From contig NZ_CALUMA010000026.1 of the NCBI RefSeq assembly GCF_944321625.1, positions 1 through 62,920 on the forward strand: a DNA stretch of 62,920 nucleotides. The letters run 5' to 3'. Position numbers and translations under genes: made by a program. The notes beneath the pieces are model-generated. The model saw nothing but the letters and a program-made list of their open reading frames with translations. It made no database searches and was not told where the DNA came from. The DNA is from an uncultured Slackia sp. (GTDB lineage Bacteria > Actinomycetota > Coriobacteriia > Coriobacteriales > Eggerthellaceae). This document shows, piece by piece, positions 7,167 through 14,794 of the stretch (within the stretch, counting starts at the first letter, position 1; each line of letters starts with the position of its first letter).

Positions 7167-7526
7167 GCGTAATCTCCTTTGCGGTTCGTTCGATTCGTTT
7201 TCAGTGTATATGCTTCGCGAGGGTTTCGCGGCGAAAAGGGACCCATTCGCACGTGCGTGGGGCGTTTTCGGCAGCGCGGCAGGTGCCGATTCGCTGAGGG
7301 CAGGTGATAATTCGCCCGGTTGCTGGTGCCGATTCGCGCAGGGGCGGCCACCCCGCTGAATAAAGAGCAGCGCGCGAACGAGCTCGCGACGGTATTCCGC
7401 AGCAGAGAGCCTGCATTTCGGTTTCATGTTGTATGCCTGCTGCGGTATCATGGCACGCTGTATCGAAGATGACGTTGGGTGCGCCGCCCAAGATGCGGAT
7501 GCGGCGCGCGAGAAAAGGAGCATTCC

Positions 7527-8930
7527 GTGGAAAGAACCAGGATTGCGCAGCTTTTTGCCGATGCCGAATCGCTGGGCGGCACCACTGTTACCGTTGCCGG
7601 TTGGGTGCGCTCGGTGCGCGACATGAAGAATTTCGGCTTCGTCACCGTCAACGACGGCAGCTGCTTTAAGGATCTGCAGGTGGTCATGAGCCGCGATACG
7701 CTGGCGAATTATGACGAAATCGCCCACCAGGTCGCCGGTGCGGCCGTCATTTGCACGGGCGAGGTCAAGCTTACGCCCGATGCGCCGCAGCCCTTCGAGC
7801 TGACCGCCGCGACCATTGAGGTGGCGGGTGCCTCTGCGGGCGACTATCCGCTGCAGAAGAAGCGCACCACGCCGGAGTTCCTGCGCACGCAGCAGCACCT
7901 TCGTCCGCGCACTAACCTGTTCCGCGCGGTGTTCCGCATTCGCTCGGTGGCGGCGCACGCCATCCACACGTTCTTCCAGGATCGCGGCTTCGTGTATGTG
8001 AACACGCCCATCATCACCACGTCCGACTGCGAGGGCGCGGGCGAGATGTTCCACGTGACTACGCTTGACCTGGCGAACGTTCCGAAGAACGACGACGGAA
8101 CCGTGGACTACACGCAGGACTTCTTCGGCAAACCGGCAAGCCTGACTGTATCGGGCCAGCTCAATGCCGAGAATTTTGCGATGGCGTTCGGCGATGTGTA
8201 CACGTTTGGCCCCACGTTCCGCGCGGAGAACTCCAATACGGCGCGCCATGCGGCCGAGTTCTGGATGATTGAGCCTGAGATTGCCTTCGCCGATCTCGAG
8301 GACGATATGAACCTCGCCGAGGACATGCTCAAGTTCGTCATTCGCTACGTGATGGAAAAGTGCCCCGACGAGCTCAATATGCTCAATAAGTTCGTGGACA
8401 AGGGCCTGCTCGATCGCCTCACGCATGTGGCGAGCTCCGATTTCGCGCGCGTGACCTATACCGAGGCCATTGAGATTCTGGAGGCGGCGGTCGCTAAGGG
8501 GCAGAAGTTCGAGTTCCCGGTGAGCTGGGGCATCGATCTGCAGACCGAGCATGAGCGCTACCTCACCGAGCAGCACTTCAAGAAGCCTACGTTCGTGACC
8601 GACTACCCGGTGGAGATCAAGGCCTTCTATATGCGCCTGAACGATGACGGCAAGACGGTTGCCGCGGCTGACTGCCTGGTGCCCGGCATCGGCGAGATCG
8701 TGGGCGGCAGCCAGCGCGAGGAGCGCTTGGACGTCCTTGAACGCCGCATCTCTGAGCTGGGGATGGATCCCGAGCAGTACAAGTACTACTGCGATCTGCG
8801 TCGTTTCGGCACCTGCAAGCATGCGGGCTTCGGTCTGGGCTTCGAGCGCCTGGTGATGTACCTGACCGGCGTGAGCAACATCCGCGACGTCATCCCGCAT
8901 CCCCGCACCGTGGGCAACGCAGAGTTCTAA
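7527..8930 (+). CDS. asnS: Asparaginyl-tRNA synthetase
   Basis: The 467-residue class IIb synthetase has the usual family length. An N-terminal OB-fold anticodon-binding domain ([26 protein letters not shown]) is followed by the catalytic core with motif 1 ([17 protein letters not shown]), motif 2 ([25 protein letters not shown]) and motif 3 ([15 protein letters not shown]). The [18 protein letters not shown] signature favours AsnRS over AspRS or LysRS. The enzyme charges tRNAAsn with asparagine in the cytoplasm. The start is a GTG at 7527 behind AAAAGGAG. An upstream in-frame ATG at 7479 would add an unconserved tail. Confidence 0.95.
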
Positions 8931-9031: not shown

Positions 9032-10456
9032 TTACTCCTTGCCGTCCCAGCAGTAGGTGCACACCTTCGTGGGATCGATGCCTATGGCCTCGAGCAGGCC
9101 GGGAAGGCTCTGGTAGCCGAGCGAGTCGAAGCCCATCTGCTCGCAGATGCTTTTGAGCAGGCATTTGCCGCGCTCGGTGGAGCTGTCGGCGTATTCGTCG
9201 ATATGCTTCACGCCCTCTTCGCCTTCAAGCTCGTCGATCACGCGACGCGCGATGAGGTCCATGTCCGACTTGCCGCGCGAGAAGCTCAGGTACTTGCAGC
9301 TGAACATGATGGGCGGGCAGGCGGAGCGCATGTGCACCTCTTTGGCGCCGGCGTCATAGAGGAAATCCACCGTTTCGCGCAGCTGCGTGCCGCGCACGAT
9401 GGAGTCATCCACCAAAAGCAGCTTTTTGCCGTCGATGAGCTCGGGCACGGGAATCTGCTTCATCTTGGCAACGCGATTGCGCACCTCCTGGTTGGCGGGC
9501 ATGAACGAACGCGGCCAGGTGGGTGTGTATTTGATGAACGGGCGGCCGAACGGCTGGCCGGATTCGGTGGCGTAGCCAATGCCATGAGGCAGGCCGGAGT
9601 CGGGCACGCCGGCCACGTAGTCCACCTGCGGAAGCGTGCCGGCCTCCGCCTCGTCGCGCGCCATGATGGCGCCGTTACGGTAGCGCATGACTTCGACGTT
9701 CACGCCTTCGTAATTGGAGTTGGGGTAGCCGTAGTACACCCAGAGGAACGCGCAGATCTTCATGTCGTCGCCGGCGGGGGCGATGGTCTCGTAGCCGTCG
9801 GGCTTCACGCGCACGATCTCCGCGGGGCCGAGCTCGTATTCGTCATCGTAGCCCAGCTTGTGGTATGCGAAGCTCTCGAACGCCACGCAATGGCCCTCGT
9901 CGTTCTTGCCGATGAGCACAGGCAAGCGGCCCATCTTGTCGCGTGCGGCAATAATGTCGCCCTCGGCGGTCATGATGAGCAGCGTGAGCGATCCGTCGAT
10001 GGCATCCTGGGCGTATTTGATGCCCGAGACGAAATCGTCCTTCTGCGTGATCAGCGCGGCGATGAGCTCGGTGTCGTTCACCTTGCCTGATCCCATGGCC
10101 ATGAACTGGCGCTTGCCGCCCTCGAAGCAGGAGTCAATCAGCTCATTGGCGTTGTTGATGGCGCTTACCGTGGTGATGGCGAAGGTGCCCAGATGCGAGC
10201 GCACCAGCAGAGGCTGGGGGTCGGTGTCGCTGATGCAGCCGATGCCCGCGTTGCCGTGGAAGCCGTTCAGGTCGTCTTCGAACTTAGTGCGAAACGGCGT
10301 GTTCTCGATGGAGTGAATCTCGCGCTGGAAGGTTCCGTTTCCTCCGCAGAACACCATGCCTGCGTTCTTCGTGCCCAGGTGGGAGTGATAGTCCACGCCA
10401 AAGAACACGTCCAGAACCACGTCGCGTTTTGACGTAGCGCCAAAAAATCCGCCCAT
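9032..10456 (-). CDS. Amidophosphoribosyltransferase-like protein lacking the catalytic cysteine
   Basis: The 474-residue protein is collinear with PurF: an N-terminal Ntn-type glutaminase-like domain and a C-terminal type I phosphoribosyltransferase with an intact PRPP loop (KKLLLVDDSIVRGTQ), followed by the CTYCWDGKE tail. PurF makes 5-phosphoribosylamine from PRPP and glutamine in purine synthesis. Here the invariant start MCG is MGG, so the nucleophilic Cys is absent, and the HRGQEGAG and GHTRY motifs are also changed (HLGTKNAG; GIGCISDTDPQP). The glutaminase half is therefore probably inactive. I recall similar MGGFFG proteins in other gut anaerobes, so this is a subfamily and not a sequencing error. 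An ammonia-dependent PurF or a different phosphoribosyltransferase are both possible. Confidence 0.8.
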   Translation of the reverse strand: MGGFFGATSKRDVVLDVFFGVDYHSHLGTKNAGMVFCGGNGTFQREIHSIENTPFRTKFEDDLNGFHGNAGIGCISDTDPQPLLVRSHLGTFAITTVSAINNANELIDSCFEGGKRQFMAMGSGKVNDTELIAALITQKDDFVSGIKYAQDAIDGSLTLLIMTAEGDIIAARDKMGRLPVLIGKNDEGHCVAFESFAYHKLGYDDEYELGPAEIVRVKPDGYETIAPAGDDMKICAFLWVYYGYPNSNYEGVNVEVMRYRNGAIMARDEAEAGTLPQVDYVAGVPDSGLPHGIGYATESGQPFGRPFIKYTPTWPRSFMPANQEVRNRVAKMKQIPVPELIDGKKLLLVDDSIVRGTQLRETVDFLYDAGAKEVHMRSACPPIMFSCKYLSFSRGKSDMDLIARRVIDELEGEEGVKHIDEYADSSTERGKCLLKSICEQMGFDSLGYQSLPGLLEAIGIDPTKVCTYCWDGKE

Positions 10457-10710: not shown

Positions 10711-11121
10711 CTACCCGTTGTTATTATTATTGTTGTTATTGTTATTGTTTGTGTACAGGCCAAAGTCGCCGCTGTCTTCGCCATCGTCGTACGTGGCCGT
10801 ATCGCTCCCTGCGGTTGTGGTGTTGCTCACGCTACGGTAGGTTTTGGGCTGCTCGCCCGGGGCGCTTACGATTTGGGCGAAATCGCATGTGAGGGTGATG
10901 GAGTCGAAATCGTTGCGGATGGGGGAGATGGGCATGGTGAGGGCTACCGCCCCCGCTCCTGTTACGAACATGAGGAACTGACGGTTGGTGCAGATATAGT
11001 TGCGTTTGTTCTGCATCAAGAAATCCGTCATTTTGCGTGCGGTGTCGCTGTTGATGCCGTGCACGTACGATTGCAGCGCCATGCAGCGCTTCATTGTTTT
11101 GCGTCGTTTGAAGAATGCCAT
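10711..11121 (-). CDS. Small poly-asparagine-tailed protein, candidate radical SAM substrate
   Basis: I do not recognise this 136-residue protein. Its N-terminus is strongly basic (MAFFKRRKTMKRCMALQSY), followed by a helical part (ARKMTDFLMQNKRNYICTNRQF), one hydrophobic glycine-containing stretch (LMFVTGAGAVALTMPIS), a beta-like middle (DSITLTCDFAQIVSAP), a Ser/Thr/Asp-rich linker (TAGSDTATYDDGEDSGDFG), and a C-terminal run of eleven Asn plus Gly. It starts 10 bases after the radical SAM gene stops, with GGAGGAG in that gap, so the two form an operon. The layout of leader-like body plus low-complexity tail fits a RiPP precursor. A membrane-anchored partner protein is the alternative. Confidence 0.65.
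   Translation of the reverse strand: MAFFKRRKTMKRCMALQSYVHGINSDTARKMTDFLMQNKRNYICTNRQFLMFVTGAGAVALTMPISPIRNDFDSITLTCDFAQIVSAPGEQPKTYRSVSNTTTAGSDTATYDDGEDSGDFGLYTNNNNNNNNNNNG
10717..10749 (-). repeat. AAY trinucleotide tract encoding eleven asparagines
   Basis: Eleven consecutive Asn codons read from the minus strand: six AAC and five AAT, in irregular order. Mixed codons mean that it is not a pure microsatellite, so the amino acid run itself may be selected. Unit gain or loss would change tail length without a frameshift. Confidence 0.9.
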
Positions 11122-11131
11122 GCTCTCCTCC

Positions 11132-12967
11132 TTATACCTGTGGCCGGGCGCCGTAAGCGGGGCAAGCGTCGATTTCTTCCCCTGGGTCGTCCTTATCATC
11201 GTCGCAGGTGAACTCAATGTTTTGAAACGGCAGATTAATGGTTTGGATGTGGTAATACGCGTTGTCGCGGTGTTTCGCGTAATGCCTGTCGCGCAGTGCG
11301 GAGGTGGTGGCGAACAGGTTGTTCGGGCGTTCGCGCGAGAATTCATCCCAGTAGGCGGCAAGCAGCGGCCCCAGCTCGAAGCGGTAGCAGTCGGGGTCGT
11401 CGGACGGGCGCGACGCCAGGGTGTCGAAAAATACCTGGTGGGTTGCCACGTGGCGCTGCTTGGTGCGCCCCTCGTCGCCGTAGGTCACGGTGTTGCCCGA
11501 AAGCAGCATGAGGTAGAGCGCATTGTTCACGGGCCATCGGCACGCTGCTTCCATGATGTCCTTTCGGATATACAGGGCGACATCGCTGTTCTTCGAGAGC
11601 GCGATAATCGTACGCTCGGGGCGTAGCACCTGGGATTTCATGGCGAACGATGCGCCATCGGCGACAAGGCGGAATGCCTCGTCGTCGAACACGCCTTCGA
11701 GCGCCGGGTCCTGTGCGACAATCTCGCGCAACGAGGGCATTCTGTCGGTGAGCGCGGGACGCTCGATGGTGAGGAGCGATGCCGTTTGGGCGGGGCGCAT
11801 CGCGGCTGCGTATCGGTAGGCGTCAGAGCGCGGGTTGCGGCTGGGCGGGTAGAGGTGTGGGTGGTCATGGTAGATTGCCTGCTGGAGCTTGCAGGTGTAG
11901 GAAGCGCCGCTTTTGTACAGGCGTTTTACGAAGGGGCATCCGGTTTTGCACAGGTACAAATAGGGGCATGCAACGCACTCCTCGGGGATGGGGGCAGCGT
12001 TGTGGGCGGCGAAAATCTTCGTACGTGCCGTTTGCAGAACGTCTTCGACGGAGTCTTTGAGCAGGTTGCCGTAATGGAATTCCTCGTGCCCCTGTCCGCG
12101 TACGCATGACCATACGTCTCCCGAGGCATCGGCGAGCATAAACTTATCGCCGCAGTTATCGCATCCCGTGCAATAGGCGGGAGTAAACTCGGCAAACCAT
12201 GCGCCGTTCACCCCGTCATTCAGATCGGTGCCGTCGAATTCTTCATGCATGCGGCGGTAAAACGCCACCTGTTCTTCATGGGTGAGCGGAGTGAGGGGGC
12301 AGCGTTCGTCGGCGAACCCAATCATGAAGTTGAAGTCATTCATGTCCAGACAGGTGTGCTCGTGGAGGTAGCGGACGTCTTTCACAATCTCGTCTATGCG
12401 CTCGAAATGCTCGTGGAAGATTGTTGCCGACGCTTTCTTGCGGTTGGGAAGGCCCTCCAGCAGTTTCAGGTTGTCCAGGATGCGCTGCAGGGTGGGTTGA
12501 TTGCCGGCGGTGCGACGGAATTGTTCGTGCAGCGAGAAAGGCAGGTCAAGGCTTCCGCTCATCGATACGTTGTAGCGCTCAATTGCTTCTATGTGGCGGT
12601 CGATGGCGTAAAGATTCGTTTTGATGTGGGGCCTACCCGCCTTGAAACCCGCCTCCGTGATAATCCGGCCGTTCTCGCGGTAATACGCATCGATATAGGA
12701 GACGAGGCTGGCGAAGTCCTCGCGCGGCAGGCAGGTGACCTCGCCGCCGTGCAGGCTGAGCGTGAAGGGCACTACGTTCGCCTCGCGAAGTTTGGTTACG
12801 ATGGCATCGAGCGTTTCCGAGGGATTCGCGAACGATCGCGTTGCCGGACCGCTGTCGTGCTCGAGGTAACAATAGCCACAGCGCAGGTTGCATTCTTGCG
12901 TGGGAACATAGAGCAGATGGACGAACCGAGGAATGGAGCCCCGCATGTCACGTTCGATGTCTTGCAT
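11132..12967 (-). CDS. Radical SAM/SPASM peptide maturase-like protein
   Basis: The 611-residue protein has the radical SAM cluster CNLRCGYC (Cys26, Cys30, Cys33) and SLHGGEVT as the SAM-binding glycine motif. A SPASM domain follows with CTGCDNCGDKF, WSCVRGQGHE, CVACPYLYLCKTGCP and YTCKL, which can ligate two more Fe-S clusters. Such enzymes modify peptides or mature sulfatases. No sulfatase is nearby, and the adjacent gene encodes a small poly-Asn protein. About 230 residues after the SPASM domain form an extra C-terminal domain that I do not recognise (rich in aromatic and His residues, ending in an acidic TCDDDKDDPGEE patch). GGGAGGC precedes the ATG at 12967. The reaction catalysed is unknown. 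Confidence 0.85.
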   Translation of the reverse strand: MQDIERDMRGSIPRFVHLLYVPTQECNLRCGYCYLEHDSGPATRSFANPSETLDAIVTKLREANVVPFTLSLHGGEVTCLPREDFASLVSYIDAYYRENGRIITEAGFKAGRPHIKTNLYAIDRHIEAIERYNVSMSGSLDLPFSLHEQFRRTAGNQPTLQRILDNLKLLEGLPNRKKASATIFHEHFERIDEIVKDVRYLHEHTCLDMNDFNFMIGFADERCPLTPLTHEEQVAFYRRMHEEFDGTDLNDGVNGAWFAEFTPAYCTGCDNCGDKFMLADASGDVWSCVRGQGHEEFHYGNLLKDSVEDVLQTARTKIFAAHNAAPIPEECVACPYLYLCKTGCPFVKRLYKSGASYTCKLQQAIYHDHPHLYPPSRNPRSDAYRYAAAMRPAQTASLLTIERPALTDRMPSLREIVAQDPALEGVFDDEAFRLVADGASFAMKSQVLRPERTIIALSKNSDVALYIRKDIMEAACRWPVNNALYLMLLSGNTVTYGDEGRTKQRHVATHQVFFDTLASRPSDDPDCYRFELGPLLAAYWDEFSRERPNNLFATTSALRDRHYAKHRDNAYYHIQTINLPFQNIEFTCDDDKDDPGEEIDACPAYGARPQV

Positions 12968-13095: not shown

Positions 13096-14274
13096 TTACT
13101 GCTCCGGGCTCACGTAACTCTGGTCGATGGTGATTTTGCAGATGGCTTGCGGGTGTTCGGCGGAAACAAGCGTCGAGATGCGTCCGCGCAGCTCCTCGTC
13201 GCTCATGTCGAAATCGGCCGGTTTCACGCAGTCGAAGATCACGTTGGTGTGCGTGGGGCCGGGCACGGTGCGCAGGTCGTGAATGGAGAGGCGCGCGTCT
13301 ATCGTCTTCACTAGGGCGTTGATCTGGTTGCGCAGGTCTTTCACCTCGGGGTCGTCGGTCACGATGGGGTCGTAGTGCAGCGTGACGATGAGTCCGTCGT
13401 TCTCCTTGAAATCCTGTTCGATGTTGTCGATGAGGTCGTGGCTCTCCATGGGGTCCGCCTCGGCGGCCATCTCCACGTGGGCGCTTGCGAACTGGCGGCC
13501 CGGGCCGTAGTCGTGCACCATCAGGTCGTGCGTGCCCAGCACGCCGGGGTAGCTCAGGATTTTGCTCTGGATGTGGCTCACCAGTGCGGGGTCGGGTGCC
13601 TGACCGAGCAGCGGGTTCACGGTGTCGCGCACCAGCAACGCGCCGCTGTACACGATGAACGCACCCACAGCGATGCCCACGATGCCGTCCAGGTCGACGT
13701 CCGTCAGGTGCGAGATGATGGCGCACACCAGCACGACGCCCGTGGAAATCACGTCGTTGCGGGAATCCACCGCGGTGGCTTCGAGCGTGGTGGACGAAAT
13801 GCGGCGCCCAATGGTGCGGTTGAACACCGACATCCAGAGCTTCACCAGGATGGAGAGCACCAGCACGGCTACCACGGCCAGGCTGAACTCGGTGGCGATG
13901 GGGTTGAGCACCTTGTCGAGCGAGGTCTGGATGAGCTCCACGCCGATGATCACGATGACCACGGCAACGGCAAGACCGGAGAGGTATTCGTAGCGCCCGT
14001 GACCGTAGGGGTGGCCGGGGTCGGCCGGCTTGCTTGCCAGCTTGAAGCCCAGCAGGCTGATCACGTTGCTCGCCGCGTCGGAGAGGTTGTTCAAGGCATC
14101 GGCAATGATGGACACCGAACCGGCAATCAGGCCGATGGCTCCCTTGCCCAGGCACAGAGCGATATTGCAGATGATGCCAACGATGCCCGCGAACTGCCCG
14201 TATCGTGTACGCACCGCGGGGTCTTCCGCATCCTCGTACCCTTTGACGAAGTGTCGCACCAGCCATTCGGTCAC
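13096..14274 (-). CDS. Cation diffusion facilitator family transporter
   Basis: The 392-residue protein has six predicted membrane spans and then a cytoplasmic domain. Membrane metal-site residues are visible in SVSIIADALNNLSDAASNVI (first site, Asp) and in TALEATAVDSRNDVIST-type sequence (here TTLEATAVDSRNDVIST). The PGHPYGHGRYEYLS segment is the usual family loop. CDF proteins export Zn2+, Mn2+, Fe2+ or similar ions in exchange for protons. Here the cytoplasmic domain is unusually long (about 180 residues against about 90), with repeated-looking beta-alpha units around VHDYGPGRQFASAHVEM and VPGPTHTNVIFDCV. The start is taken at a GTG (14274) behind GAGGAGC. Confidence 0.88.
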   Translation of the reverse strand: MTEWLVRHFVKGYEDAEDPAVRTRYGQFAGIVGIICNIALCLGKGAIGLIAGSVSIIADALNNLSDAASNVISLLGFKLASKPADPGHPYGHGRYEYLSGLAVAVVIVIIGVELIQTSLDKVLNPIATEFSLAVVAVLVLSILVKLWMSVFNRTIGRRISSTTLEATAVDSRNDVISTGVVLVCAIISHLTDVDLDGIVGIAVGAFIVYSGALLVRDTVNPLLGQAPDPALVSHIQSKILSYPGVLGTHDLMVHDYGPGRQFASAHVEMAAEADPMESHDLIDNIEQDFKENDGLIVTLHYDPIVTDDPEVKDLRNQINALVKTIDARLSIHDLRTVPGPTHTNVIFDCVKPADFDMSDEELRGRISTLVSAEHPQAICKITIDQSYVSPEQ

Positions 14275-14794
14275 GCTTTTTGCTCCTCTCGCGAAATAAG
14301 TGCTGTCGTTTTTCGGGCACCGATGCAATGTGCGATGTGCCGTTATCCTCCAAACGCAAGGATGATGCGCGGTGTGTCATCGCTCTCAAAGCGGTAAAGT
14401 GCCCGAAGCTGCATGCTAGCCTGGGGCGCAACTCTGTTTGGAGTCTGACGCAAGTGTAGTCGTTTAGGGCGAGTCATGCTCGAAATAAAGGGCGCGTGCA
14501 AGATAAATGCGATTTCGTGGACGGTATTTCGATTTTCCCGGTTGGAAGAGAGGTATTGAACTGTTGCCCGAGAAGCAGTATTGCATCGAAAACATTGACG
14601 ACCTGGGGATATGGGAGATGCTCTCGATTATCGTATGCCGGATTTCTTTACCGGGGAGCGCAAAACGAGGGGGAGTGCCGTGTATTCGCCGGGAAAATCG
14701 CAAAAACGTCCACGAAATCGGTTCTCGCTGTCCGAAGGGACTGTCAAAGCGTAGGTGGATGGTGCCTGGAACGTATCGTGGATGACGCTCGGAG
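14275..14794. other. Gene-poor stretch, possible degraded reading frame
   Basis: No convincing gene lies here. Bases 14507-14640 on the plus strand can be read as RGRYFDFPGWKRGIELLPEK followed by more protein-like sequence, but there is no clear ribosome site, and after 14640 the frame loses coding character. It may be a gene remnant. Composition is lower in GC than the flanks. Confidence 0.3.

Follow-up and report, generated by a model that had tools for sequence, protein, structure and literature searches.

A radical SAM/SPASM maturase paired with a small protein that ends in an asparagine run: a candidate tail-modifying system of gut bacteria with relatives beside Campylobacter phage tail fibres

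The 62,920-nucleotide stretch of an uncultured Slackia sp. contig analyzed here (the window) carries two adjoining genes on its minus strand. The first encodes a radical S-adenosylmethionine (SAM)/SPASM maturase of 611 amino acids (11132..12967, ATG start), assigned from sequence, alignment, an AlphaFold2 model and fold search; the second encodes a protein of 136 amino acids (10711..11121, ATG start; MAFFKRRK...GLYT-N11-G), which we call the carrier and which is the putative substrate. The genes are separated by 10 bases (11122..11131) that hold the Shine–Dalgarno motif GGAGG (11127..11131), and the strong ribosome site of the carrier gene, TAAGGAGGAGAGCATG (AAGGAGG), overlaps the maturase stop codon. 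The carrier closes with an oligo-Asn tail and a terminal Gly (10714..10749), made up of 11 Asn codons (10717..10749) and one Gly codon (10714..10716). The original prediction had described a 611-residue radical SAM/SPASM protein with intact cluster motifs, followed 10 bases later by a small protein ending in eleven Asn and a Gly. The sequence agrees with this exactly; the location of both genes on the minus strand is a point that the prediction did not state. The Asn run mixes AAC and AAT codons in a window of 59% G+C and is the sole (AAY)8 tract of the 2.40 Mb source genome, in which the maturase is present as a single copy.

The radical SAM cluster motif CxxxCxxC (C26, C30, C33; 12869..12892) is invariant in an alignment of 69 gut sequences and in an alignment with the phage homologues described below. 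Alignments and structural comparison place a SPASM region at residues 266–359 (11891..12172), with eight cluster Cys (C266, C272, C288, C331, C334, C340, C344 and C359) that are likewise invariant in the 69-sequence alignment. The enzyme exceeded the cut-off of Pfam PF04055, and the generic SPASM domain model TIGR04085 was the only NCBIfam model that it passed among the matches listed, the nearest models being peptide- or protein-modifying SPASM maturases. The best fold match of its AlphaFold2 model (predicted local distance difference test score, 89) was the anaerobic sulfatase-maturating enzyme (anSME), with Z 27.2, a root-mean-square deviation of 3.5 and 335 residues aligned, followed by ChlB, CteB and SuiB. 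On the ligand assignment in anSME, each of the 11 invariant Cys corresponds to a cluster ligand; the only near-invariant extra Cys, C269, is missing from two relatives (L002 and L170). An additional C-terminal domain (approximately residues 375–590; 11198..11845) contains invariant N, T, R, H, Y and K residues and is common to the phage homologues. It had no family match in profile searches, and the whole-model fold search barely probes it; a lone weak profile match in the Protein Data Bank (PDB), SSO6904 (E 0.006–0.016), was not believed. The enzyme has no N-terminal extension that could hold the leader-binding recognition element of ribosomally synthesized and post-translationally modified peptide (RiPP) pathways. 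That the C-terminal domain reads the Asn is a guess.

In the carrier, AlphaFold2 predicted a folded domain with the order HHEEEEE over residues 1–88 (10858..11121; 10-residue block means, 84–98), followed by a linker and tail predicted to be disordered. The linker is Asp-rich in the window and mostly Gly/Ser-rich in relatives. No PDB fold match for the domain rose above Z 3.8, NCBIfam held no family for the carrier, and Pfam returned weak matches only, probably due to low complexity. Across whole carriers the mean column identity was 28%, and nearly all conserved columns lay in the tail. Conservation within the small protein is thus highest in the Asn tail, which makes the tail the likely target of the enzyme.

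The occurrence of the two genes was compared in genome sets. Among 296 genomes of Coriobacteriia, the enzyme was found in three and the carrier domain in the same three (chance approximately 2e-7), whose tails consist of 9–13 Asn followed by Gly. In the Bacilli order that contains locus L018, 9 of 193 genomes had the enzyme and 10 had the carrier, including all 9. The tenth (G431) was dismissed as a carrier without enzyme: its contig starts inside the radical SAM gene, of which the last 75 residues are present. The spread is patchy, as a phylum sample of 398 genomes around a Lachnospiraceae genome held the enzyme in two, one of them the centre genome itself; each of seven genomes checked had one copy. 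Weak carrier-profile matches appeared in two genomes without the radical SAM gene, G361 (E 2e-4) and G479 (E 7e-4), and none of the open reading frames (ORFs) of G361 had an Asn tail. Had the small protein been widespread without the enzyme, the proposed link between them would have been in doubt; no such spread was seen in the Coriobacteriia and L018-order sets, where the counts coincide. Judged by this distribution, the enzyme and the carrier form an obligate pair.

A genome scan with the maturase of the window, which selected relatives by enzyme similarity alone, yielded 80 loci with enzymes 44–57% identical. They come from metagenome-assembled genomes (MAGs) and isolates, for the most part of gut and rumen origin to judge by their record titles, and carry the labels Bacilli, Clostridia, Lachnospiraceae, Oscillospiraceae, Erysipelotrichaceae, Bacteroidales and Eggerthellaceae; two of the contigs use genetic code 25. 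A C-terminal Asn run or its start was visible in the adjoining small protein at all 76 loci not cut by a contig end; at the other four (L036, L055, L059 and L081) the contig ends before the run. Linkage and retention of the run in homologues, which the original prediction had named as its check, thus hold, and no intact small protein among the 80 loci lacked the run. The downstream ORF has 105–158 amino acids and consists, after its folded part, of a linker, the Asn run and as a rule no more than one residue; the genes for enzyme and carrier often overlap by 4–8 bases. In 64 complete carriers the longest run spans 5–20 Asn, mostly 12–16, and is followed by R in 24, by nothing in 15, by G in 9, by H in 8, and by S and A in 4 each. 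At one locus (L041) the run lies one frame off after the linker; in L042, another contig from that MAG, it is in frame. The assemblies break inside the Asn tract in L020, L027, L029, L042, L044, L063, L064, G461 and G367, which may reflect variation of tract length within populations.

Wherever codons were tallied, at loci of 22–64% G+C, AAC and AAT were irregularly interspersed within the runs. Because the codons are scrambled, selection acts on the run at the level of the protein. The run might instead be an inert spacer or a DNA-level repeat unrelated to the enzyme, comparable to the poly-Asn linker of maltose-binding protein (MBP) fusion vectors. The PDB matches of the carrier profile are indeed mostly MBP-fusion spacers, and poly-Asn runs do occur in AT-rich genomes: an (AAY)9 tract was present in 39 of 193 genomes of one AT-rich order. 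Among the 30 (AAY)9 loci listed, however, the C-terminal runs with at most one residue after them were five members of this family (L125, L126, L135, L145 and L147) and L139, where the run terminates an open frame of a mere 14 residues; the remaining listed tracts were internal or pure AAT repeats. Mixed codons and terminal position rule out a microsatellite origin, and differing genomic contexts rule out contamination by vectors with poly-Asn MBP linkers. Since the run also goes together with the enzyme and persists across phyla, we consider an inert spacer or repeat extremely improbable.

Two metagenome contigs (L047 and L056) add a further observation. In-frame TGA falls at Gly positions of the enzyme in 15 of 16 cases, and code 25 (TGA=Gly) reads through the radical SAM gene, a leucine-rich repeat (LRR) gene, the carrier and neighbouring genes. 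In the tree their operon, composed of gene A (described below), the radical SAM gene and the carrier gene, is nested among Bacilli, and the tails are N17 and N16. The operon has apparently moved between phyla into a recoded lineage, with the tail kept through the change of code; judged from the code only, the contigs would belong to Absconditabacteria/Gracilibacteria.

At most loci outside Eggerthellaceae the pair lies in an apparent operon with the order A, radical SAM, carrier, D. A (approximately 70 loci) has predicted membrane segments and a C-terminal BspA-type LRR region, and D (43 loci) has approximately 338 amino acids, two predicted membrane helices, two zinc ribbons and a mean identity of 54%. 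D tracks the pair: the carrier is present in eight of the nine genomes of the L018 order that have D, and the other one, G309, has a decayed D without enzyme or carrier (G309:C53:5417-6131; L121 and L122), which is a remnant of a lost operon. An LRR search for A in Eggerthellaceae gave generic LRR matches only. The minimal conserved unit is the enzyme with its tailed carrier. In an Eggerthellaceae locus, a predicted membrane protein of 178 amino acids without a Pfam family lies 3' of the carrier (L086:3804-4340), as it does in L002.

Plasmid and phage collections provided a second branch; a scan of IMG/VR with an alignment of gut sequences only had given no match. Residues 18–587 of the window enzyme match a full-length homologue, the radical SAM protein of Campylobacter Mu-like phages (C. 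coli NZ_CP082878, phage CAM-P21 and about a dozen IMG/VR contigs), and the alignment shows that the phage homologues keep all 11 cluster Cys and the C-terminal domain. In these phages (L161–L172, L180 and L183) a tail fibre lies two genes upstream of the radical SAM gene, with a conserved gene of 210/211 amino acids (phrog_10241) in between. The upstream gene encodes a tail fibre, with PF12571 in several, and a different protein takes that position in L169, L171 and L172. The upstream proteins end in SGSTNNNNY, SNSTNNNNY, SGATNNNNY, LGSSNNNNY, YSTGNNF, SSGNNF, TSMGNNF, TSMGNNS or YSCNNNNN. Two or more Asn with at most one residue after them close 11 of 11 distinct upstream proteins versus 1 of 109 other ORFs in the phage loci, counts that are not independent since the phages are related. 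That unrelated carriers share this ending is the best indication that the enzyme recognizes the tail and that the tail stays on its carrier; the phage enzyme lies beside fibres that bear the Asn tail at their C-terminus. In two anSME-like relatives from human-gut viral records (L187 and L188), no Asn tail was found among the ORFs.

The phage fibres also bear on the view, implied by the original prediction, that the pair is a RiPP-shaped unit whose maturase acts on the tail. The part that concerns the tail stands, with an obligate pair and the tail as likely target; a strict RiPP pathway finds less support. In a classic secreted RiPP, unlinked proteases and transporters would cleave off the modified tail and export it as a bioactive peptide. 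The two-gene layout of maturase and precursor fits this, as does the fact that SPASM relatives mostly make RiPPs. In the window, as had been predicted, neither an exporter nor a protease adjoins the pair, and no leader peptidase or exporter is a conserved linked neighbour in approximately 80 loci; the leader would be a folded domain of 88 residues, in the structural model, with a flexible linker; and the phage tail sits on a structural fibre. We give a secreted RiPP a slim chance, and the same evidence suggests that the tail is kept on the carrier and not released.

The reading that we favour, with a probability of about 0.72, is that the enzyme is a dedicated maturase that modifies the C-terminal Asn run repeatedly, the run being presented on a folded carrier through a flexible linker. 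The tail as its substrate is well supported by the comparisons above, although these also hold points that weigh against the reading. The phage runs comprise only 2–5 Asn. In L196, a phage homologue further removed (38% identical to the Campylobacter type), the upstream ORF does not end in an Asn tail, and the pairing may therefore fail to extend to the whole superfamily. A and D are absent beside the window pair, and a search for D in three Eggerthellaceae genomes, which included no positive genome, gave no match; the membrane context is thus not common to all pairs. Finally, the tail could be bound and yet remain unmodified. As to L196, its upstream ORF is Cys-rich, and beyond the TAA stop the same frame runs on to ...TTNCTNNSNH (L196:4749-7806).

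Binding without modification is the core of another explanation, in which the tail acts as a docking tag and directs the enzyme to a different target, for instance the LRR protein or the body of the fibre. Conservation is expected of a tag too, the short phage run suits it, and the conserved C-terminal domain of the enzyme could read it. Runs of up to 20 Asn and the weak conservation of the rest of the carrier speak against a tag, as do the Eggerthellaceae, which keep the pair though A and D are missing, and the phages, whose fibre bodies differ. We therefore think a docking tag quite unlikely.

If the enzyme does modify the Asn run, the chemistry and the use of the tail are guesses. The folded carrier domain would present the run through its Gly/Ser linker (Asp-rich in the window), and the enzyme would recognize and modify the run itself. 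A 5'-deoxyadenosyl radical would abstract hydrogen at the C-alpha or C-beta of Asn, and the second electron would pass to the two auxiliary clusters, whose ligands are complete. The outcome would be a repeated two-electron oxidation, giving an intra-tail cross-link or dehydro-Asn with approximately −2 Da per event, which we favour with modest confidence by analogy with the −2 Da chemistry of TvgB. The modified tail would then remain on its carrier and form a tip that is rigid or sticky, at the end of the fibre in phages and, in most gut hosts, within an LRR/zinc-ribbon complex associated with the membrane. Thioethers are excluded because core Cys are lacking, and cyclophanes are unlikely to be general because aromatic residues are missing in 42 of 64 tails, counted from six residues before the run onwards. 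The window does have Y123-T124-N125, which fits the aromatic-X-X motif of three-residue cyclophanes (triceptides).

Alternatively, the enzyme might epimerize alternate or all L-Asn to D-Asn, producing a beta-helical tail as in polytheonamides, whose core is Asn-rich. The long uniform core favours this, and a mass-silent chemistry suits a homopolymer. PoyD makes approximately 18 epimerizations in one precursor (PMC8326336). Known peptide epimerases, however, use a dedicated H-donor Cys, as reported for PoyD and EpeE (PMC8326336), whereas all 11 invariant Cys here align with cluster ligands and the spare C269 is missing in two relatives; moreover, proteusin epimerases have no SPASM clusters. Epimerization is thus unlikely in our estimate, and repeated oxidation of the run remains the chemistry that we favour.

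The pair is flanked on the minus strand by a cation-efflux-like gene (13096..14328) and a purF-like gene (9032..10456), both named from sequence only. A gene judged from its sequence to encode an asparaginyl-tRNA synthetase-like protein lies approximately 1.8 kb from the pair (7479-8930). Its closeness is probably a coincidence, since genes of this kind are not prominent among the conserved neighbours at other loci. An Rfam search gave no match, a terminator scan gave scores no better than those of shuffled sequence, and promoter matches were weak and located inside genes.

The original prediction knew of no described RiPP class with a poly-Asn core; our literature searches on poly-Asn with radical SAM or RiPP likewise gave no relevant paper and no account of a radical SAM enzyme acting on an asparagine homopolymer, and the family libraries searched contained no entry describing a modification by this enzyme–tail pair. 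We regard the pair as real, a seemingly dedicated enzyme and substrate in the layout of SPASM maturase and precursor, with an undescribed type of substrate. Its presence in several gut phyla, the apparent intact move into a recoded lineage and the mirror in phage fibres predict a modification on the last few to twenty residues. If true, this would be a new substrate class for radical SAM biology, and phages could dress their fibre ends by radical chemistry; a modified tail that functions on its carrier would be something categorically new. More tentatively, and as a possibility that we think less likely than not, one enzyme family may turn C-terminal oligo-Asn, on gut carriers and Campylobacter phage fibre tips alike, into a retained modified polymer for surface contact.

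Among known systems, the catalogue entry phrog_1802, a phage radical SAM domain protein without a described function, substrate or tail, matches the Campylobacter phage enzyme with E 6.4e-142; residues 21–593 of the window enzyme match 49–556 of its 556 residues with E 1.2e-30. anSME (PDB 4k36–4k39) offers the best fold over residues 14–374 and has the same layout of auxiliary-cluster Cys. In its YPCD motif the Asp after the Cys, which is catalytic in anSME, is replaced by Val289 in YSCVRGQ of the window enzyme family, and formylglycine-type chemistry is thus unlikely. The window enzyme also has the extra C-terminal domain, no sulfatase was seen nearby, and its 82.8 bits against TIGR03942 fall short of the cut-off of 349.45. 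The nearest NCBIfam SPASM families are the cyclophane, ranthipeptide and darobactin/dynobactin maturases GrrM, YhhB, AmcB, PapB, DarE and DynA, and the window enzyme scores below the curated cut-off of each. Their substrates need an aromatic residue or Cys, which most Asn tails lack; the core Cys of sacti- and ranthipeptides has a counterpart within the last 40 residues in 1 of 64 tails. Proteusins of the PoyD type resemble the pair in the large leader, but differ in having no SPASM domain, a conserved donor Cys and a nitrile-hydratase-like leader. TvgB is a SPASM radical SAM enzyme that acts repeatedly on a repetitive core, at −2 Da each, to make a poly-cyclopropylglycine RiPP (PMC9062424). 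It acts on Val in TVGG repeats, and Asn has no comparable methyl pair. The linked leader peptidase or exporter of RiPP pathways has no counterpart in the 80 loci, whereas their other hallmark, a precursor gene co-conserved with its modifying enzyme, is shared by the pair.
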